DNA from: Salegentibacter sp. 24
GTDB lineage: Bacteria; Bacteroidota; Bacteroidia; Flavobacteriales; Flavobacteriaceae
Length of the DNA stretch: 64,000 nucleotides
Assembly (NCBI RefSeq): GCF_004362395.1
Contig: NZ_SNWE01000020.1
Location: 1-64,000, forward strand
Direction: 5' to 3'
Part shown: positions 47,118 through 56,542 of the stretch, in pieces
How positions within the stretch are numbered: the first letter of the stretch is position 1
How the letters are laid out: each line of letters begins with the position of its first letter
Notes under the pieces: generated by a model
Seen by the model: only the letters and a program-made list of their open reading frames with translations
Database searches by the model: none
What the model was told of the DNA's origin: nothing
Position numbers and translations under genes: made by a program

Positions 47118-47133
47118 TATGACCAGACTCATA
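47118..47133 (+). promoter_or_regulatory. Crp/Fnr-type operator and promoter of the RIC gene
   Basis: TATGAC-CAGA-CTCATA matches TATGAC-N4-GTCATA at 11 of 12 arm positions. Exactly 21 bp downstream is a 7-of-8 -7 box (GATATTTG, 47155-47162), placing the site about 41 bp before the expected start. The same pair and spacing occur before the Crp/Fnr gene (49418) and the nos operon (56527). The rest of 46912-47195 shows no gene. Confidence 0.65.
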
Positions 47134-47195
47134 AAATAGCGGAAGGACAAGGCTGATATTTGTAAAGAAATATTGTTCAACTTAAAGCTAATATT

Positions 47196-47918
47196 ATGAA
47201 TACTGAAACTGTTAAAACCGTAGCCGATTATGTAACAGAAAACATTAAAAACGCACACTTGTTTAAAAAACATGGAATCGATTTTTGCTGTGGCGGCGGC
47301 GTTAGTCTGGCCCAGGCAGCGGAAAAAGCCAATGTGAGCCTTGAGATACTAGAAAAGGAATTACAACAAACCGAGATGGTAAGCAGCCCGGGTTACGATT
47401 ACAAAAACTGGAAGCTGGATTTTCTAACTGATCATATCATAAATGTGCATCATCATTACGTGGAAGAAAATATTCCGCTGCTTATTCAGTATTCAGCCCG
47501 AGTGGCCAAAGTTCACGGACGCCAAAGACCCGAACTCATAAAAATCCAGCAGTTATTTACCAAGGTAGCCCAGGAATTAAGCGCTCACCTAAGAAAAGAG
47601 GAACTTATACTATTCCCCTTTATAAAAAAATTAGTAAAAGCCCAGGAAGAAGCAACGCCAGTTGCACAACCACAATTCGGGAAAATTGATAACCCCATAA
47701 AAATGATGGAAACCGAACACGATGAAGCTGGAGCCATTTTTAAAGAAATTGCTGATTTAAGCGATAATTACACCTGTCCTGAGTGGGCCTGCAATACCTA
47801 TAAGGCATTGTATTCCAAACTTGAAGAGTTTGAAAACGATCTTCACCACCATGTACATCTGGAAAACAATATACTTTTTCCAAAGGCAATCCAACTTGAA
47901 CGCAGCTTAACCAACTAA
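47196..47918 (+). CDS. ric: Iron-sulfur cluster repair di-iron protein
   Basis: A 240-aa RIC (ScdA/YtfE) protein. The N-terminal ScdA-type segment has LFKKHGIDFCCGGGVSLAQAA with a Cys pair. The hemerythrin-like core has iron ligands in INVHHHYVEENI, AHLRKEELILFPF, ETEHDEAGAIF and HHHVHLENNILFP. It repairs nitrosative or oxidative damage to Fe-S clusters and responds to NO in other bacteria. The operator upstream links it with the nos operon and the Crp/Fnr gene. Confidence 0.92.
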   Translation: MNTETVKTVADYVTENIKNAHLFKKHGIDFCCGGGVSLAQAAEKANVSLEILEKELQQTEMVSSPGYDYKNWKLDFLTDHIINVHHHYVEENIPLLIQYSARVAKVHGRQRPELIKIQQLFTKVAQELSAHLRKEELILFPFIKKLVKAQEEATPVAQPQFGKIDNPIKMMETEHDEAGAIFKEIADLSDNYTCPEWACNTYKALYSKLEEFENDLHHHVHLENNILFPKAIQLERSLTN

Positions 47919-48000
47919 AAGTTCCACTGGAAGTGCCCCCAACACCGATATGAAATTTAACTATTTATTTTAGTAAGTTGTTTTAATTGTGTTGAAGATA

Positions 48001-48024
48001 CCCCGTCACAGGAATGTCACGGGG
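48001..48024 (+). terminator. Hairpin after the RIC gene
   Basis: CCCCGTcAC and GTcACGGGG pair around AGGAAT with a single mismatch. There is no T-run afterwards, so it may be a weak terminator or an RNA-stability hairpin. The remainder of 47919-48183 shows no gene. Confidence 0.45.
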
Positions 48025-48183
48025 TTAACACCTTCTTAGCTGTGATTTTATTATGATAATCCTGCACTGCTAAAGGTTTATGTAAATCTCTGTAGGCTTT
48101 TAAGACATAGATCATTTCAACTGGTTTGCGAAGAGTTCAGTGTTTTCTTTTTAAGCTAATTTCTTTTTAGTATCTTTTTCCTT

Positions 48184-49392
48184 ATGCCCCGTTTAAATTT
48201 AAAAGCACACCACCACATTGCATTGGCTTATTTCTTCTTGGCTGCGCTGCTGGGAATATTATTACGATTGTTTTATATAATCCCGGTTGCCGGAAATTAC
48301 AGGTATATTCTCCACGCCCACTCCCATACTGCTTTATTAGGTTGGGTTTATCTGGCTTTAACCGGAATCATTTATCGTTTGTTTTTTCACAGAACAATAC
48401 TTTTAAAAAAATACTGCTACCTATTCCTGGCTACCAATATCAGTTTATTAGGGATGTTGTTTAGTTTTCCTTTTCAGGGTTATGCTATGATTTCTATTAT
48501 CTTTTCCACGCTTTTTCTTTTTTGCTCCTATTTTTATACCGCTTTTGTGTTTAAAAATGTTCCTGAAATCTTCCGTAAAACCCAAAGTTTTAAACTAATA
48601 AAGGCAGCCTTGTGGTATATGGTTTTTTCCAGTATTGGCCCCTGGGCTTTAGGAGTTATTATGAGTACGCTGGGAAAAACATCCCTTTGGTATAAACTCT
48701 CTGTATATTTTTATCTTCACTTTCAATATAATGCATGGTTTTTACTGGCCATACTGGGTATTCTATTCTTTCTCTTTCAAAAATTAGAATTAGATTTTGA
48801 AGCAAGTAAATTCAAGCGCTTTTTCTTCCTGCTGAATTCAGGTGTGATCTTAAGCTTTTTTCTTTCCACCTACTGGACAAAGCCTCCATTAATATTTTAC
48901 TTTCTTGGCGGTCTCGGAGCAATACTGGTATTACTTGCTTTCTTACAACTTTTCGCATTTCTACTTCAAAATAAGAAACTTCTGAAATCCGGATTAAGAT
49001 CAATGGAATATCGGATTTTAAAGATTTCAGGCCTGTTACTGGCTGGCAAAATTTTAATGCAAAGTCTAACGGCAATCCCATACTTTGCTGATCTGGCTTT
49101 TCATAACCTGGATTTTGTTATTGGATACTTGCACTGGGTCTTTCTTGGTTTTGTGTCCCTGGCATTATTCGCTTTTTTAAACTGGTTAAAAATAATCCAA
49201 GTTCCCAGGAATGCATTTTACTTTTACCTGGCCGGATTTATAATTTCTGAAAGCCTTATTTTTTATAAAGGCCTGGTGCTGTGGTTAGGACTTCCATTTA
49301 TCAGCAATTATTTCCTCATACTGGTGTTGGTAAGTGCGTTTATTCCTGTTGCTGTGGGATGGATTTTATGCGCTAATCTTTCAAAAAAATAA
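48184..49392 (+). CDS. Multi-pass membrane protein with N-terminal histidine motifs
   Basis: A 402-aa protein with about 11-12 predicted membrane helices and little else. Near the N-terminus LKAHHHIALAYF is followed by ILHAHSHTALLGWVYLAL, His clusters at a membrane boundary of a kind seen in NnrS-like and haem-copper-oxidase-related proteins. Further His sit in YLHFQYNAW and VIGYLHWVFLGF. I do not recognise an exact family. It lies between the RIC and Crp/Fnr genes in a nitrogen-oxide neighbourhood, so a role in NO or copper/haem handling is possible (inference). Confidence 0.7.
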   Translation: MPRLNLKAHHHIALAYFFLAALLGILLRLFYIIPVAGNYRYILHAHSHTALLGWVYLALTGIIYRLFFHRTILLKKYCYLFLATNISLLGMLFSFPFQGYAMISIIFSTLFLFCSYFYTAFVFKNVPEIFRKTQSFKLIKAALWYMVFSSIGPWALGVIMSTLGKTSLWYKLSVYFYLHFQYNAWFLLAILGILFFLFQKLELDFEASKFKRFFFLLNSGVILSFFLSTYWTKPPLIFYFLGGLGAILVLLAFLQLFAFLLQNKKLLKSGLRSMEYRILKISGLLLAGKILMQSLTAIPYFADLAFHNLDFVIGYLHWVFLGFVSLALFAFLNWLKIIQVPRNAFYFYLAGFIISESLIFYKGLVLWLGLPFISNYFLILVLVSAFIPVAVGWILCANLSKK

Positions 49393-49417
49393 TTGGTGTA
49401 TTCCCAGGCCTCCGAAA

Positions 49418-49433
49418 TATGACCATCCTCATT
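49418..49433 (+). promoter_or_regulatory. Crp/Fnr-type operator and promoter of the Crp/Fnr gene
   Basis: TATGAC-CATC-CTCATT matches TATGAC-N4-GTCATA at 10 of 12 arm positions. A 7-of-8 -7 box (CAAGTTTG, 49455-49462) lies exactly 21 bp downstream, as at the RIC and nos promoters. Autoregulation of the gene at 49484 is implied. Confidence 0.55.
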
Positions 49434-49483
49434 GATAGTCATTTAGTTTTTCACCAAGTTTGTTTTGATTAAACAAGAGAGAA

Positions 49484-50080
49484 ATGATAGCGGAAAGTAT
49501 TTTACTGGAGTTTGGAGCTTCAAAAGAAACTTACCATAAAGCTGACCAGCTTTTTAGTGAAGGAGAAATTGCACTTAATTTTTTTCAGATTATATCTGGG
49601 GAAATCAAGATGAATAATTACAATGCCGATGGTAAGGAATTTATCCAGGGAATATTTGTAGACGGCCAGAGTTTCGGGGAACCGCCCCTACTGGCCGATG
49701 TAAAATACCCGGCCAATGCTGAGGCCATAAAAACTTCAGAGGTTTTAAAACTGCCCAAGCTCAACTTCCTGGAGCTGCTTACCCAACATCCCAAGACCCA
49801 CCTGAAACTTACCCGTACCCTGGCCAAAAGGCTTTTTTACAAAGCCATTATGGTTTCTGAAATTTCCAGCCAGGACCCCGAACATAGAATTATCAGGATC
49901 CTTGATTATCTCAAACGCTACGTGCATCATATTGAAGGCCCCTTTAATTTTAAAGTTAACTTAACCCGCCAGCAAATCGCCGATTTAACCGGACTGCGTG
50001 TAGAAACCGTAATCAGGGCTATGAAAGGTCTGGAAAAAAAAGGTGAACTAAAAATTAAAAGTGGAAAAGTCTATCGCTAA
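49484..50080 (+). CDS. Crp/Fnr-family regulator (cysteine-free, likely NO/O2-responsive)
   Basis: A 198-aa regulator. The effector barrel (FFQIISGEIKMNNYNADGKEFIQGIF, FGEPPLLADVKYPANAEAI) is followed by a long dimer helix and a classical FNR-type HTH (LTRQQIADLTGLRVETVIRAMKGL). There is no cysteine at all, so it is not an Fe-S FNR. A haem or nucleotide-type NnrR/DNR-like sensor is more likely. It is between the RIC gene and the convergent nos operon (6-bp gap) and carries the shared operator in its own promoter. Confidence 0.9.
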   Translation: MIAESILLEFGASKETYHKADQLFSEGEIALNFFQIISGEIKMNNYNADGKEFIQGIFVDGQSFGEPPLLADVKYPANAEAIKTSEVLKLPKLNFLELLTQHPKTHLKLTRTLAKRLFYKAIMVSEISSQDPEHRIIRILDYLKRYVHHIEGPFNFKVNLTRQQIADLTGLRVETVIRAMKGLEKKGELKIKSGKVYR

Positions 50081-50086
50081 TTCGGT

Positions 50087-50869
50087 TTAAAAATCTTTTT
50101 TCCCCGCCAGTCTTAGCATTCCCCAAACCGGAATGAACACCCAGGCTAACAAAACAATAAAACTTATTAGGCTTCCTTTAGTTGTACCGAAGAATTCTTT
50201 AAATACCGCACCAGTATATCCGAGCAAGGCCGAAATATCCAACTTCAATAAAATCAAAGTACGACTTAGATCTATGGGATTGAGCACGCTGGCAACCAAA
50301 GCAAAATCTTCTAAAGGATATTCCTGAAAATACATTAAAAGCAGTAGGAATAAGCCGTCGTATATAATGGCCAGGAATAGCCACATTACAATGGCCATAC
50401 CAAAACCCTTAATCTTATTTTCAAATTTTAGGGCAATTCCGAAAGAAAGTGCAGTAAAAATAAAGGTCAAAAAAGCACCTACTACCAATAAAGAAAAGAA
50501 ATCCCAGATGGCGGAAGATTCAAAAAGTCCATAAATAATAAAAGGAATTCCCAGTCCCAGCACCAGGCTCAATGCAAGTGAAATAGCCACCCCTAAATAC
50601 TGACCTAAAAAAATATGCCTTCGGGCAATAGGCTGGGCCAAAAGCAATTCGGTAAACTCCCGGGAATTATAGAAATACATTATACCAAAAATGGTCCCAA
50701 TAAGGGGGACCAAAACAATAACGACATTCATCAATGTAATAATGGCATTGGAAAGGTCATTATTCAAAAACAATAAAACTAACCCCAGTAAGAGGTAAAA
50801 AAAGAAATAAACGAAACTCCAGCGACTTCTGAAAAGATCAAAAAAACTGTATTTTAGAATTTTATACAT
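50087..50869 (-). CDS. nosY: Nitrous-oxide reductase maturation ABC permease
   Basis: A 260-aa ABC-2-type permease with six membrane helices and the N-terminal YSFFDLFRSRW segment typical of NosY. It pairs with the NosF ATPase, whose stop overlaps this start by 8 nt, to form the transporter needed for assembly of the copper centre of N2O reductase. It is the last gene of the nos operon. Confidence 0.9.
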   Translation of the reverse strand: MYKILKYSFFDLFRSRWSFVYFFFYLLLGLVLLFLNNDLSNAIITLMNVVIVLVPLIGTIFGIMYFYNSREFTELLLAQPIARRHIFLGQYLGVAISLALSLVLGLGIPFIIYGLFESSAIWDFFSLLVVGAFLTFIFTALSFGIALKFENKIKGFGMAIVMWLFLAIIYDGLFLLLLMYFQEYPLEDFALVASVLNPIDLSRTLILLKLDISALLGYTGAVFKEFFGTTKGSLISFIVLLAWVFIPVWGMLRLAGKKDF

Positions 50870-51572
50870 GGGTGGGTGAGGTTAAGATTTGGGCTATAGC
50901 GTGTTCAAGGTCATCCTGCCTGGTTGCAGCTTTTAGTTCACTTACGCTACCATTAAAATAAATTACACCTTCCAAAATAAATAAAATCCGATCGGCAGTT
51001 TCTTCCACAAAATTCATAATATGGGAGGTGATAATTATAGTCTTCCCCGCTGCCTTTTCTCTTCCCAGGAGTTCCCTGAGTTTGATCAAAGAAGCAGGAT
51101 CCAGACCTGAGGTAGGCTCATCTAAAATAATAAGCGGACTGTCAAACATAAAACAAAGCACGATATTCACCTTTTGACGGGTACCACCCGAGAGCTGGCT
51201 TAATTTTTTATCCAAGAAGCTTTGAATGCCGAAAAAAGCAATCAATTCTTCGTCCCGTGCAGGTTTTCCTCTTAAGTCTTTAATCATTCCAATTAGTTCT
51301 TTTACCTTAAGGTTTCCGGGGAAATTAGCGATCTGGGGGAGGTAATCAATTTCTTTACGATAATCACTTTGACCTCGAATTTCCTTTCCATTTACAGCTA
51401 TTCCCCCTTTTTGGGGAATAACCATACCTAATAAACTTTTTATAAGCGTAGTTTTTCCTGAACCGTTTGGCCCCAGTACCGCTATTATACCCGGGATATT
51501 TGTTTCCAGGTTTAGGCCGTTTAACACCTGTTGCGAGCCAAAACGTTTATAAAGATTCGTTACCGTTACCAT
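50862..51572 (-). CDS. nosF: Nitrous-oxide reductase maturation ABC ATPase
   Basis: A 236-aa ABC ATPase. Walker A is GPNGSGKTT, Q-loop YLPQIANFPG, signature LSGGTRQKV, Walker B PLIILDEPTSGLD and H-loop TSHIM. Context between nosD and nosY and the overlaps (7 nt with nosD, 8 nt with nosY) identify it as NosF. It powers NosY in copper-centre maturation. Confidence 0.93.
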   Translation of the reverse strand: MVTVTNLYKRFGSQQVLNGLNLETNIPGIIAVLGPNGSGKTTLIKSLLGMVIPQKGGIAVNGKEIRGQSDYRKEIDYLPQIANFPGNLKVKELIGMIKDLRGKPARDEELIAFFGIQSFLDKKLSQLSGGTRQKVNIVLCFMFDSPLIILDEPTSGLDPASLIKLRELLGREKAAGKTIIITSHIMNFVEETADRILFILEGVIYFNGSVSELKAATRQDDLEHAIAQILTSPTHV

Positions 51573-52801
51573 TGTATTTTTTTTATAAAAGGTTGACTAT
51601 CCAGGACATCGGCCGGGGTAAATATGGGAGAAACTTTTTCTGAAAATTCAATTAGATCAATAAACAAACTTCTAAGCATTACGATACTCTCTGGGGTTTT
51701 GTTTACTAAATAAGAAAACAAGCTCACCGGACGATATGGTATATCGCCAAAACTGTCCTTATCCAGATCATAGCCAGAATAATTACTCCAAAAATTTCCG
51801 TTGAAGCTATTTTCGTTACTGTGGCCGTGATAGGTGAGGTCAAATGAATTATATAAAAAGTTATTTCGCTTAAAGACATTCCTATAACATCCACCTCTAA
51901 TTTTTACCGCATAGCCGTTACTCTTAAAATTGTTTTCGATGTAATTAATACGGCTGGTATTATCGGCGCTAATCCCTACGGTATTTTCTTCAAAAGTATT
52001 TTGTATTAATTCTGAATCAGTAATTTCTTTTAACAACAACCCATAAGAAGCACTCCCCCAGTTATTTTTAAAGGTATTGCGATACATTTTTATATTTTTA
52101 GAATACATCACCGCTACTCCGGCACCATTGTTTTCAAAAAGATTCCCGGAATAAATATTTCCATCAGAAAACATAAAATGAAGCCCGTATCTTAAATTGT
52201 TTTTACAAACATTATTTTTGATCTCAGCATTATCGCTAAACTCCAGGTAAATTCCGTCACGAACACCCTCCACCTGGTTATCCTCAATATGCATTTCTGA
52301 AGTTTTCCAAAGATGAATCGCGTTCCCGGAATGTGCCTGGCTTTTAGCATTGCCACTGAATTTATTCCCGATAATCCTTCCGTTTTTCGAGCGCTCTATT
52401 AATATTCCGAAGAAAATTTTATCAAAACGATTGTTTTTTATTTCAAAATTGGCTGAATTACTGATCAAAATGGCAGCAAAATCACTGGTATGACTCCTTC
52501 CAATATTGATGATTTTAAAACCTTCAATTCTAAATGCTTGAGCACTTACAATAATTGCATACCCCTGCATTTGAGCATCAATGACCGGAAAATCTTCCCC
52601 GATCAGCACCAGGGATTTATCTTTTATACTGATATTATTCTCCTTGTAAAGACCGGATTTCACTCTAATTGTGTCTCCCATTTCGGCCATTTCAACTGCA
52701 TCTTTTACCGAACTGATCTCACAACTTTTACATACCGTAATTTCCCCGCCGTAAAAGTTGAATCCGATAAAAATTAGGAATATAAGGAGCAAAGCTTTCA
52801 T
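51566..52801 (-). CDS. nosD: NosD periplasmic copper-centre assembly protein
   Basis: A 411-aa secreted right-handed beta-helix protein. A signal peptide (MKALLLIFLIFIGFNFYGG) leads into repeated Asn/Phe/Ile-rich turns such as NFEIKNNRFDKIFFGILI, NAEIKNNVCKNNLRYGLHF and DSELIQNTFEENTVGISA. It ends with NGNFWSNYSGYDLDKDSFGD, which is typical of NosD/CASH-domain proteins. It works with NosF and NosY in the periplasm. A CKSC pair sits just after the signal peptide. Confidence 0.93.
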   Translation of the reverse strand: MKALLLIFLIFIGFNFYGGEITVCKSCEISSVKDAVEMAEMGDTIRVKSGLYKENNISIKDKSLVLIGEDFPVIDAQMQGYAIIVSAQAFRIEGFKIINIGRSHTSDFAAILISNSANFEIKNNRFDKIFFGILIERSKNGRIIGNKFSGNAKSQAHSGNAIHLWKTSEMHIEDNQVEGVRDGIYLEFSDNAEIKNNVCKNNLRYGLHFMFSDGNIYSGNLFENNGAGVAVMYSKNIKMYRNTFKNNWGSASYGLLLKEITDSELIQNTFEENTVGISADNTSRINYIENNFKSNGYAVKIRGGCYRNVFKRNNFLYNSFDLTYHGHSNENSFNGNFWSNYSGYDLDKDSFGDIPYRPVSLFSYLVNKTPESIVMLRSLFIDLIEFSEKVSPIFTPADVLDSQPFIKKIQW

Positions 52802-52807
52802 ACCTGA

Positions 52808-53215
52808 TTAATTCAATTGGTTTTTTAATTCTTCCCAGGCCTGGAGATTCCCTCCTTTACGGCTTTGCTTTTTCACTGCAGCAAGATTTGCTCCCATGGG
52901 ACTTCTTAAACTGTCATGTTGAACAAATCCTGCTTCAGTAACGGGGAGCATATTACCTGGCTTATCATAATTGGCAACCAAAATGAAGGAGGTTTGGTAA
53001 TCCTTCTGAAATATATCATGAACCATACATTCGATGGCATCATATTTATACTGCTTCCCTTTATCGGTTACCAATTGGGCCGCGAAGGCCTGATCTACAA
53101 TAGTCATTTGACAAAAATGACAATTGTCTACACCATAATTTATGGGTTCAGGTTGAAAACTACAGGCCGAACATAAGAATATCAGGCCTATTATTGCAAG
53201 AGAGAATTTCATCAT
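52808..53215 (-). CDS. nosL: NosL copper chaperone lipoprotein
   Basis: A 135-aa lipoprotein, read from ATG 53215 (MMKFSLAIIGLIFLCSAC) so that it overlaps the upstream membrane-protein gene in an ATGA. The NosL copper motif CHFCQMTI follows at about residue 33. NosL delivers Cu(I) for the N2O reductase copper centre. A longer start would extend ahead of the signal peptide and is less likely. Confidence 0.92.
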   Translation of the reverse strand: MMKFSLAIIGLIFLCSACSFQPEPINYGVDNCHFCQMTIVDQAFAAQLVTDKGKQYKYDAIECMVHDIFQKDYQTSFILVANYDKPGNMLPVTEAGFVQHDSLRSPMGANLAAVKKQSRKGGNLQAWEELKNQLN

Positions 53216-53826
53216 CTGTGATTTTTGAATGCCTTTTTTCTTATCCACCAGGCGATTAATGTTAGAAACATACCCACAAACATTAGATAAGCACCGATTC
53301 TTGGATAGGAATGGGCCGTAAAATTTAATATGTCCTGAGTACCCAGTAAAGGAGGTTTATAGTTGATCGGATTACCTTCCTTATCCGTTAATTTTATAAT
53401 AGCTTTCGGGTCTAAATCGGTGCCATAATCTAACAACCAATTATTAAAATCATACATTCCCAGCGTTCCCAGAATGATCATTAAAATAAACCAACCCAAA
53501 AACCAGGAAGGATGAATTTTCTTAAAAAAGCCTAGTAAACCAACTAAAACTCCTAAAGCGGCCATCACGGCTATTACCATTGGGAATACCTGAAACTCCC
53601 ACATTTCTTCTGGTTTTGGAATTTTCTTCATCCCTATATAATGGTTTACCCCGTCTATATTTTGAATATCAAATTCTTCTTCCCCTACAATCCCGCTAAT
53701 GAATATGTCCATCCCCATTGGATCGGGATATTGCGGCGCGGCAAGTCGTATATTCCAAAGAGGGAAATAAAACAGGCCTAACAATAAGAGCGAGCCGATA
53801 ATCATTAAAATTGCCGAGCGTTTCAT
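53212..53826 (-). CDS. Membrane protein of the nos operon (unknown role)
   Basis: A 204-aa protein with about four membrane helices (near residues 6-24, 84-104, 111-128 and 180-198) and two periplasmic loops with Asp/Tyr-rich segments (MYDFNNWLLDYGTDLDPKAI). The gene lies between nosZ and nosL, overlapping nosL by 4 nt. Similar small membrane proteins sit in clade II nos clusters of Bacteroidota, and they may assist electron transfer or copper delivery. The exact function is unknown. Confidence 0.8.
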   Translation of the reverse strand: MKRSAILMIIGSLLLLGLFYFPLWNIRLAAPQYPDPMGMDIFISGIVGEEEFDIQNIDGVNHYIGMKKIPKPEEMWEFQVFPMVIAVMAALGVLVGLLGFFKKIHPSWFLGWFILMIILGTLGMYDFNNWLLDYGTDLDPKAIIKLTDKEGNPINYKPPLLGTQDILNFTAHSYPRIGAYLMFVGMFLTLIAWWIRKKAFKNHR

Positions 53827-53890
53827 AAGCTTAGGTATTGTTTATTAAATCTGGAGTTATAAAAAGTCATGGTTTTGTGGAACTTTTAAA

Positions 53891-53932
53891 ATAAAGGAGG
53901 GCGCAATCTATTTTAGGTCAACCCTCCTTTAT
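53891..53932 (-). terminator. Intra-operon hairpin after nosZ
   Basis: ATAAAGGAGGG and CCCTCCTTTAT form a perfect 11-bp stem, followed by TTTT on the minus strand. It lies in the 126-bp gap between nosZ and the accessory genes. A partial terminator or processing stop here would raise nosZ mRNA over the assembly genes. Confidence 0.7.
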
Positions 53933-53952
53933 AAAAAAACCACCTTCAACTA

Positions 53953-55917
53953 TTAACTTTTATATTCGTCGTCCAAGCCCCATTTCATCGGGGTGTTGCT
54001 TCCTTTAGGAGAAACCCGTATATAACCCTGCATTTCCTGGTGCAGCGCCGAGCAGAAATCGGTACAATAGAATGGCCATATCCCTGGTTTTTTAGGTTCC
54101 CAGGTAATCGTTTTTGTTTGCCCGGGCATAATTAATAATTCAGAAGTATTGGCACCAATGACTGAGAAACCATGGGGTACATCAAAATCCTGTTCCAAAT
54201 TGGTAACGTGGAAATATACCTTATCGCCCACGTGAATACCTTCCAGGTTATCAGGAGCAAAATGGCTTCGTACCGTGGTCATAGAAACATGTACTTCATT
54301 TCCATCCCGGACCATTTTGGTTTCGCTTTCATTAAGTGCTGCATACTTATGTTTATTTTCATCAAGTCGATAAATCTTTTTGGAATTTTCTTTGATTTTA
54401 TCGGCCTTAATAGCAGCTGCATAATGCGGTTCGCCATGAGTTGGGAAATCCAACAGTAATTCCATTTTATCCCCTGAAATATCAAACAATTGTGCTGAAT
54501 GCTCTAATTCAGGACCGGTAGGTAAATAGCGATCTTTGGTAATCTTATTCAAGGTTATCATATATTTCCCTTCAGGTTTCCTTGAATTCCCTCCGGGAAT
54601 CATAAGGTGCCCAACAGAATAATAACTTGGCTCTCTATCCAGAACTTCCCAGGTGCCTAATTTCCATTTCACTGCTTCGGAGGAAATAAAAAATGTAGTA
54701 TAAGCATTCCCTTTGTCATCAAATTCCGTATGCAAGGGGCCTAAACCTGCATTTTTTACAATGCCGGCCAATGTAGATTCAAAACTCAGGATTGGAATTC
54801 CGTAGGCCTCACCATCAAATTCCTTATTTTCAATAGCCTTTAGCATCTTGCTAAATGAATGCACCGTAAGGTCACTGGAGAGTTTTCCGTTACCGATAAT
54901 ATATTCCCCCGATGGATCTACATCACAACCGTGAGGAGACTTAGGTGTTGGCATAAAAAATACTGCTCCAGGGACCTGGCGAGGGTCTACTCTAAGCACT
55001 TCGTTTTTAGTTGTTGAGACCGTTGTTTGCGTACTGTGATCAAACACATTATGAACATACTCTGCTTCCATTTTCTGGCCGCCACCATTTTCCACATATT
55101 CACTTATTTTTTTCCAATTTACCGCAGCGATAAAATCCTTATCATTTTGTGAGGCATTTACTTCCTGCATCGTATGTGCTTCCTCCGTGTTATAGGTAGT
55201 AAAGAAAAACCAACCATGAGAATCTCCACGACCCGGATGGGAAAGGTCATAATTAAATCCGGGCATATCCAGTTGAAAATCAATTTCCATATGGCCTTTA
55301 TCATCTACTGCAATAAAAGTCAGGGGACCTTTGAAATTACCCTTCATCTCATTTATAGGCATATCCTTTTGCGGATAAGGAACTGAAAATCGGGTTCCGG
55401 CCACCACATATTCAGTATTTTCAGTAACATAAGAAGAAGAGTGGTTCCCTGCACTGTGAGGAATTTCAATGATTTCCTCTGTTTCAAAGGTTTCCAGGCT
55501 TATCCTGGCTATTCTTGGCGTATTATTTTCGTTGATAAAAATCCAGCGACCGTCTAATTCTCCATTGGTTTGAGAAATATCAGGGTGGTGAGCATCACCC
55601 CAGGGTACCATTCCAAACGAGGTCTTTAACATATCCTTGGTTTCTTCAGAATAACCGTAACCATTGGTCGGGAATTGAGAAAATACAGGAATTTCTTTTA
55701 ACATTCTTCCAGATGGAAGTCCGTATACGGTAATATTGCCACTATACCCGCCCGATAAAAAGGCGTAATATTCGTCGTGTTCTCCCGGACTTACATACAC
55801 CTTTTCAGCCGCGCTGGAAGCCATCGCACCCGATTTTTCGCCTTCTTTATTTTGATTACACGAAGTAAAGCTCGCCATAAGTACAAGAGCGGCTATGATA
55901 TTTTTAATTGGTTTCAT
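53953..55917 (-). CDS. nosZ: Nitrous-oxide reductase (clade II, lipoprotein-type)
   Basis: A 654-aa enzyme, read from ATG 55917 so that the lipoprotein signal MKPIKNIIAALVLMASFTSC is used. A seven-blade propeller holds the CuZ His ligands (DAHHPDIS, SPHGCDVDP, EPHYA). The C-terminal cupredoxin has the CuA motif CTDFCSALHQEM with a preceding His. A Sec-type signal (no twin Arg) marks clade II NosZ. It reduces N2O to N2 in the periplasm. It follows the c-type cytochrome gene by 40 bp. Confidence 0.96.
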   Translation of the reverse strand: MKPIKNIIAALVLMASFTSCNQNKEGEKSGAMASSAAEKVYVSPGEHDEYYAFLSGGYSGNITVYGLPSGRMLKEIPVFSQFPTNGYGYSEETKDMLKTSFGMVPWGDAHHPDISQTNGELDGRWIFINENNTPRIARISLETFETEEIIEIPHSAGNHSSSYVTENTEYVVAGTRFSVPYPQKDMPINEMKGNFKGPLTFIAVDDKGHMEIDFQLDMPGFNYDLSHPGRGDSHGWFFFTTYNTEEAHTMQEVNASQNDKDFIAAVNWKKISEYVENGGGQKMEAEYVHNVFDHSTQTTVSTTKNEVLRVDPRQVPGAVFFMPTPKSPHGCDVDPSGEYIIGNGKLSSDLTVHSFSKMLKAIENKEFDGEAYGIPILSFESTLAGIVKNAGLGPLHTEFDDKGNAYTTFFISSEAVKWKLGTWEVLDREPSYYSVGHLMIPGGNSRKPEGKYMITLNKITKDRYLPTGPELEHSAQLFDISGDKMELLLDFPTHGEPHYAAAIKADKIKENSKKIYRLDENKHKYAALNESETKMVRDGNEVHVSMTTVRSHFAPDNLEGIHVGDKVYFHVTNLEQDFDVPHGFSVIGANTSELLIMPGQTKTITWEPKKPGIWPFYCTDFCSALHQEMQGYIRVSPKGSNTPMKWGLDDEYKS

Positions 55918-55957
55918 ACGATTGGTTTTTATATTCAAAATTGAGATTCAGGTAACA

Positions 55958-56473
55958 TTAGTTTTCAGCATCATACTGTCTAAAATATTCCACAATTGAT
56001 CTGGCTTCATCTTCCTTTAGGCCCTGGTCAGCCATTATGGCCATATTGGATTCCACCATTAACCTTTTTGCGATAGGGTCTTTTTTAATCATTTCTTCAG
56101 GGTTAAGGATCATATTCATGATCCATTCAGGGGAGCGCCTCTGGGTTACCCCAACCAGTGCAGGACCGACAAATTTCTTATCCATCTTATGACAGGCAGA
56201 GCACATATTTTTGAAGATAACCGCTCCCTGATTTGCCATTTCTGAATCAATACCTTCAGGAAAATCCAAAGATTTTACAGGTCCGATACCCTTATTGGAC
56301 AAATCGTCCCCAGCCTTATCTGGAGTACTAATGACTTCAGTTTCTTTTTCTTGAGTTTCTGATGAATAATCATCTAAACTAATATTCTCTTTCTCGTCTT
56401 TCTCAGAATTACCGCAGGCCATAAACGAAAACACTAAAGTTAAAGTCAGGCCTATTTTTACAATTAATTTCAT
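55958..56473 (-). CDS. c-type cytochrome of the nos operon
   Basis: A 171-aa lipoprotein monohaem cytochrome, read from ATG 56473 (signal MKLIVKIGLTLTLVFSFMAC). The haem motif CSACH is followed by KMDKKFVGPALVGV and a Met ligand region (ESNMAIMADQGL). It probably donates electrons to NosZ, encoded directly downstream. It is the first gene of the operon controlled by the Crp/Fnr-type site at 56527-56542. Confidence 0.92.
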   Translation of the reverse strand: MKLIVKIGLTLTLVFSFMACGNSEKDEKENISLDDYSSETQEKETEVISTPDKAGDDLSNKGIGPVKSLDFPEGIDSEMANQGAVIFKNMCSACHKMDKKFVGPALVGVTQRRSPEWIMNMILNPEEMIKKDPIAKRLMVESNMAIMADQGLKEDEARSIVEYFRQYDAEN

Positions 56474-56526
56474 AATGATTGATTTTGATTTCAATGGTAA
56501 AGTTACCGGAGAAGTCAACCCTATTT

Positions 56527-56542
56527 TATGACCCCAGTCATA
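56527..56542 (-). promoter_or_regulatory. Crp/Fnr-type operator and promoter of the nos operon
   Basis: TATGAC-TGGG-GTCATA is a perfect inverted repeat. A 7-of-8 -7 box (TAACTTTA on the minus strand, 56498-56505) lies exactly 21 bp downstream, the same arrangement as at RIC and the Crp/Fnr gene. This is the best of the three sites. The remaining sequence of 56543-56730 shows no other recognisable element. Confidence 0.7.

Follow-up and report, generated by a model that had tools for sequence, protein, structure and literature searches.

Crp/Fnr proteins of the DNR, NnrR and FNR types are found at nos and other denitrification promoters, and at a class II promoter of this superfamily the site is centred near -41.5. 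The -7 box of Bacteroidota promoters reads TAnnTTTG. Many Bacteroidota reduce N2O, a greenhouse gas, and in the open-licence PubMed Central literature (subscription journals being outside the scope) no paper was found on the operator or the regulator of Bacteroidota nos genes. NssR of Campylobacter jejuni is the nearest functional analogue of the system described here. This Crp/Fnr protein activates globin genes, among them that of the truncated haemoglobin Ctb; the excerpts available of PMC4601167 and PMC1274295 give it a small nitrosative-stress regulon and a sensing mechanism that is unknown. Here, a stretch of 64,000 nucleotides of the marine bacterium Salegentibacter sp. 24 (Flavobacteriaceae; GCF_004362395.1, contig NZ_SNWE01000020.1, positions 1 to 64,000), called the window, was found to contain one operator at the promoters of RIC (an iron-sulfur cluster repair protein that mends nitric-oxide damage), of a Crp/Fnr regulator (called A) and of the nos operon. 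The shared operator and box were confirmed, and regulator A is probably a nitrosative-stress activator of the NssR kind, which recruited nos in Salegentibacter. The sites are putative class II docking sites of dimeric Crp/Fnr activators.

The operator and box unit

The promoters and genes of the window were found to be arranged as follows.

47118..47133, + strand: operator TATGACCAGACTCATA of the RIC promoter, with the A-type flanks TTATGA..TCATAA
47155..47162, + strand: -7-like box GATATTTG of the RIC promoter, 21 bp downstream of the operator
47196..47918, + strand: RIC, iron-sulfur cluster repair di-iron protein (TIGR03652, E 1.4e-73, exceeding the curated cut-off)
49418..49433, + strand: operator TATGACCATCCTCATT before the Crp/Fnr gene, found in 5/13 genus genomes
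49455..49462, + strand: -7-like box CAAGTTTG of the regulator promoter, 21 bp downstream of the operator
49484..50080, + strand: regulator A, a Crp/Fnr protein of 198 amino acids with zero Cys and the recognition helix TGLRVETVIR
50087..56476, - strand: nos operon (cytochrome c, NosZ, membrane protein, NosL, NosD, ABC ATPase, ABC permease)
56498..56505, - strand: -7-like box TAACTTTA of the nos promoter, 21 bp downstream of the operator
56527..56542, - strand: operator TATGACTGGGGTCATA of the nos promoter, with a 10/10 core in 11/13 genus genomes

The nos operon was found to contain matches to cytochrome c, nos_propeller, NosL, NosD and ABC2_membrane, and its ATPase was assigned by eye. All three operators claimed by an earlier sequence-only reading were found, each exactly 21 bp before its box, and the half-site of the palindrome TATGA-N6-TCATA was distinct from the TTGAT-type FNR site, as had been proposed. 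The box match of that reading, given as "7-of-8", was corrected, since TAnnTTTG defines six bases, of which each window box fits five.

In the own assembly of 4.15 Mb, the strict operator TATGACNNNNSTCATW was found at four exact places, namely the three of the window and one within an open frame of 503 codons. The operator alone, with at most one mismatch, was not enriched in this genome (53 strand-matches vs 90 for the reversed control). The complete unit TATGAYN5TCATA-21-TANNTTTR, with at most two mismatches, gave 31 matches vs 17 for the reversed control, and the three units of the window were found to carry 0, 1 and 2 mismatches to it; operator-21-box was present at three exact places and at four with one mismatch. 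The single genome is thus suggestive only and not decisive. The other operator and box matches of the own genome (contigs C17, C10, C20:66387 and C25) showed no clear nitrogen-oxide role by eye and are not claimed.

The comparison set consisted of 149 Flavobacteriaceae genomes of 148 genera, and the controls were reversed motifs and dinucleotide shuffles. In this set the palindrome TATGAYNNNNRTCATA was found 590 times vs 301 times for the reversed control, and the exact unit TATGAYNNNNRTCATN-21-TANNTTTG was found 283 times vs 0. The genome-wide count on which the sequence-only reading had staked its motif was thus clearly non-random across the family and suggestive at most in the own genome. 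Upstream of nosZ, a loose unit (core of at least 8/10 and box of at least 5/6) was present in 63/70 regions vs 0-3 regions per set in 20 dinucleotide-shuffled sets. These 70 regions were taken from 72 nosZ genomes, G058 and G128 having been dropped (a fragment and a distant homologue), and the short upstream DNA of G037 (195 bp) and G066 (878 bp) was kept. They contained 73 operators with a core of at least 9/10, of which 55 have a perfect box; all 55 perfect boxes were found at spacer 21 and none elsewhere among the spacers 5-45.

That an AT-rich genome produced these sites by chance is very improbable. The lack of enrichment of the operator alone in the own genome speaks for chance; the family-wide count of operator plus box, the 55/55 perfect boxes at one spacer and the conservation of the units at RIC and nos within the genus speak against it. 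The fixed distance, as claimed before, was found to place the operator over the -35/-33 region (spacer of 21 bp, and 22 bp at some A-type sites), as is typical of class II promoters. A centre at -41.5 and class II activation would follow from this spacing. A dimeric Crp/Fnr activator probably docks over the -33 region and touches RNA polymerase at Bacteroidota-type promoters.

Regulator subfamilies and the genes that accompany them

At least three Crp/Fnr subfamilies of the family, called A, B and C, appear to use TATGA-N6-TCATA with a spacer of 21 bp, sometimes 22 bp; their cut-offs were chosen by eye from the match lists (A, E<1e-40; B, E<1e-45; C, E<=1e-50). Subfamily A, that of the window regulator, was found in 32/149 genomes. 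It belongs to the Crp/Fnr superfamily by its Pfam matches (cNMP_binding, 1.4e-16; HTH_Crp_2, 1.5e-8) and its PDB matches to CRP, FNR and DNR. It is not FNR proper, as 11/27 aligned orthologues are, like the window copy, Cys-free, so that A contains no conserved Cys, and the candidate operators are TATGA-N6-TCATA and not TTGAT. It is also not of the cAMP-CRP type (Arg180, TGTGA), as matched A copies were found to contain Val (once Thr) at this residue and the operator contains A at position 3.

Subfamily B, found in 89/149 genomes, is FNR-like: 29 of its 30 viewed loci encode an N-terminal CxxC. Subfamily C, a receiver-cNMP-HTH protein (receiver-Crp fusion), was found in 66/149 genomes and was adjoined by a FixL-like histidine kinase in all 30 loci viewed, the PAS part being matched in 29. 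The best PDB matches of this PAS part were FixL chains (E 6.6e-18), and a His in the query stretch RYKANHHEHF aligns with a FixL His, as would be expected of a PAS domain related to the FixL haem domain. The own genome contains A and C and no B (best match to the B query, 6.8e-25). Its C gene lies at C2:176991-178019, and at C2:175718-178022 the FixL-like PAS histidine kinase was found to be directly followed by the receiver-Crp fusion, a pair that recurs in the family. Where a genome lacks an FNR-like protein, this pair is a candidate for the O2 sensor.

The commonest recognition helices were TGLRVETVIR (A), GTATESAIR (B) and GIATESLIR (C). In a CRP alignment made by eye, all three were found to keep Glu and Arg and to be without Arg180. 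This agrees with the correlations R180/G3 and E181/A6 given in the part available of Rodionov and others (PMC1274295), since the operators carry A6 and lack G at the third base. Among 30 B/C-type loci viewed, units were found before hemN and ccoN, for each of which one case was tested, and, by eye, before a UspA-like gene and B itself. The operator (9-10/10 core) was present upstream of B in 24/30 B loci, mostly without a box at 21.

The operators linked to A were mostly TTATGA..TCATAA and the nos operators mostly ATATGA..TCATAT. Profiles were made from 24 A-linked sites (RIC and globin) and from 44 nos promoters of genomes without A, and were judged by leave-one-out. The whole promoter assigned 23/24 A-linked and 44/44 nos sites correctly, the operator with 4 bp on each side 23/24 and 44/44, and the flanks by themselves 22/24 and 41/44. 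The operator was immediately followed by AA in 18/24 A-linked vs 2/44 nos sites, and 59 named sites contained T in the left flank in 55 and A in the right flank in 53. The A-linked boxes at spacer 21 begin with G or C in 16/19 and the nos boxes begin with T in 44/44. As a marker of A-linked sites the first box base (not T in 20/24) holds only in part, as the spacer is 22 bp and the box begins with T in the five other A-linked sites.

The promoters of the window genome were held out from the profiles. On the operator with flanks, RIC scored +24.3, nos +25.6, globin +12.8 and A -1.3 bits, positive scores being A-type; on the whole promoter the scores were +35.8, +26.1, -4.0 and +7.1 bits, respectively. 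The nos promoters of G031 and G042 scored +14.1 and +10.9 bits on the operator with flanks and +7.8 bits each on the whole promoter.

The RIC unit was found in 10/25 RIC regions of genomes with A vs 1/42 of genomes without A (Fisher P 1e-4, phylogeny ignored). The set of 67 regions includes the second copy of G031 and omits a partial match (G037) and second copies or pieces of G001, G022, G082, G089 and G047. Within the genus, the unit was present in all 11 other genomes that contain RIC in the fetched region (core 9-10/10, spacer of 21 bp, box 4-5/6).

A second gene set that tracks A is an operon of a 93-amino-acid membrane-type protein and a globin, which matched 2ig3, a group III truncated haemoglobin (1.1e-12). 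In the globin set (the best 30 loci, from 40/46 genomes searched), an operator with a 10/10 core was found in 19/25 loci from genomes with A vs 0/5 from genomes without A. Of the former, 16 also contained, 21 bp downstream, a box matching 4/6 or better. In the own genome this operon contains the promoter TATGATTTTGCTCATA-21-TAATTTTA at C2:180616-180572, outside the window, and is a putative fourth member of the target set.

The named A loci were the 80 best among 529 relatives. In 66 of them the globin or its partner lay no more than 4 kb away, and in 70 a 9-10/10 operator was present beside A, 59 within 250 bp downstream and 11 within 400 bp upstream. A perfect box core was found at 22 bp in 43 of these 59 downstream operators and at 21 bp in seven, and the 21-bp spacer is thus not universal. 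Loci with the 22-bp spacer beside A include L411, L415 and L437, and many are of Flavobacterium and Aquimarina. The A-self operator of the genus lies 49-156 from the ATG with the 21-bp spacing unchanged. The autoregulation predicted by the sequence-only reading has the support of this operator in 5/13 genus genomes; the scores of the window copy are ambiguous.

Side observations concern proteins encoded near such units. The 402-amino-acid membrane-type protein between RIC and the regulator (48184..49392, + strand), found near A or RIC across the genus, gave zero matches in Pfam, NCBIfam and PDB; it is hydrophobic, contains an HAHSH stretch and is retained beside RIC and the regulator, and is perhaps, as a guess, haem-copper or NnrS-like. 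At C17:62348 of the own genome (L188:8348-8392), an exact nos-type operator-21-box was found before a Cys-rich protein of 138 amino acids and a large efflux-type gene, and in G012 and G049 (L287, L293) units of this kind also stand before small proteins resembling this Cys-rich protein. A conserved protein of ~205-225 amino acids with an MSYxxYRxLVKxL-like start was present after a B/C-type unit in 4/30 loci (L269, L272, L273, L274).

Candidate regulators of nos

B and C would run an oxygen-limitation regulon, normally including nos, and A a small nitrosative-stress regulon of RIC, the operon of the membrane protein and group III truncated globin and, in some lineages, A itself. In the window genome, A most likely activates RIC, the globin and probably itself under nitrosative stress. 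The nos operon of Salegentibacter is most likely under A, with C perhaps as a second regulator, because the nos operator contains the A-type flank (usually T..A and not A..T). The sites, their spacing and conservation, the co-occurrence and the sequence classes were observed; from these we infer binding, activation, NO and not N2O as the signal, and the order of the evolutionary switch.

The sequence-only reading had placed the window regulator behind all sites. Co-occurrence upheld the link to RIC; the link to nos did not hold across the family, as a strong nos site was about equally frequent in scanned nosZ genomes with A (17/20) and without A (43/50). Among the nosZ genomes, 71/72 contained B or C vs 20/72 containing A, and C was present in 22/23 of those without B, the exception being 82% complete. 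As the nos site does not track A across the family and B or C is near-universal in nosZ genomes, the family-wide nos site fits the oxygen regulators B and C. Exact units were found in 103/120 genomes having B or C vs 3/29 having neither, the latter being often small or incomplete, a limit which also weighs against the reading given here. These figures favour the alternative that in the window genome, as in relatives, nos is run by the oxygen-responsive FixL-kinase and receiver-Crp pair of C, and A controls RIC, the globin and perhaps itself; the shared operator would then reflect the common descent of Crp/Fnr specificity and not one circuit. This alternative is nevertheless rather unlikely. 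The genus nos operators were found to be mostly TATGAYTGGRGTCATA, with AA after the operator in 11/11 full-core sites near the cytochrome and T..A flanks in 8/11; G031 contains a full-core nos operator farther upstream, with an AA flank. The window nos operator is strongly A-type by its score and contains the right flank AAATAG, the same as that of RIC. The genes for A, RIC and nos adjoin, and A and the nos cytochrome are jointly present in 13/15 genus genomes and jointly absent from the other two at the thresholds used, one of which is 61% complete. Local control of nos by A would be read from two things only, the A-type nos flank of the genus and the gene neighbourhood.

It is likewise doubtful that A and C bind all operators with similar affinity and that O2 and NO signals are combined at each promoter through competition for one site. 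The core palindrome is identical and the spacing mostly equal in both regulons, and the recognition helices contain a common Glu/Ile/Arg pattern; the promoter classes, however, are separable by flank, which suggests discrimination between A and C. A tentative proposal, somewhat less likely than not, is that in the Flavobacteriaceae the oxygen-limitation and nitrosative-stress regulons share a core palindrome and near-equal geometry, that the flanks (A..T vs T..A) separate them, and that Salegentibacter nos crossed from the former to the latter by a flank change.

The preferred reading, A as an NssR-like activator that recruited nos, has to be set against the following observations. C is present in the window genome and could still bind nos. 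The nos promoters of A-positive genomes outside this clade were nos-type in 15/15 (whole promoter) and 14/15 (operator with flanks), and A control of nos is thus lineage-specific at best. The nos sites of the genus are of related sequence, and one event may account for them all; in G156 the sole nos site is 8/10 and has a TT flank, and the left flank base of the window nos operator is A rather than T. The unit was absent from 15/25 RIC regions of A-positive genomes, and the A-self operator was absent from 8/13 genus genomes and scored negatively in the window on the operator with flanks, as did the window globin promoter once the spacer and box were included. The 22-bp spacer was found in 5/24 A-linked sites and in most sites of the named set. 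The co-occurrence statistics ignore phylogeny. For Flavobacteriales Crp/Fnr homologues, a bioreactor study predicts carbon sensing in the part of it available (PMC8510549).

Comparison with known systems

What results is a motif open to test, together with candidate regulators for oxygen (two) and for nitrosative stress (one); changing a few bases next to the operator may shift N2O reduction between signals, for which Salegentibacter would be a natural case. In contrast to the promoters of DNR, NnrR and FNR, the -7 box of these units is the Bacteroidota TAnnTTTG. The boxes given in the excerpt of PMC1274295 are TTGATnnnnATCAA for FNR and DNR and ctTTGcgnnnncgCAAag for NnrR, whereas position 3 of the half-site is A here. 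HcpR of Bacteroides and Porphyromonas is likewise a Bacteroidota Crp/Fnr protein tied to nitrogen-oxide stress, with hcp as its target, the motif GTAACnnnnGTTAC and Pro at 181 for most HcpR2; P. gingivalis contains another motif and Gln (same excerpt). In rhizobia, as described in the part of the literature available, FixLJ-FixK2 places a FixL-type kinase above the Crp-type control of microaerobic and nos genes, as may be the case with C. Unlike FixLJ-FixK2, C contains the receiver fused directly to the Crp module and is encoded beside the kinase.

The likeness of A to NssR is one of putative function, and NssR is from another phylum. An operator and box were found before the globin operon beside A, and control of the globin by A, of the NssR type, is predicted from this sequence. 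The excerpts cited for NssR give it the box TTAACnnnnGTTAA and the residues A180/Q181, whereas A of the window has TTATGAnnnnnnTCATAA and V/E at these positions. Unlike that of NssR, the putative target set of A adds RIC and, in Salegentibacter, nos.

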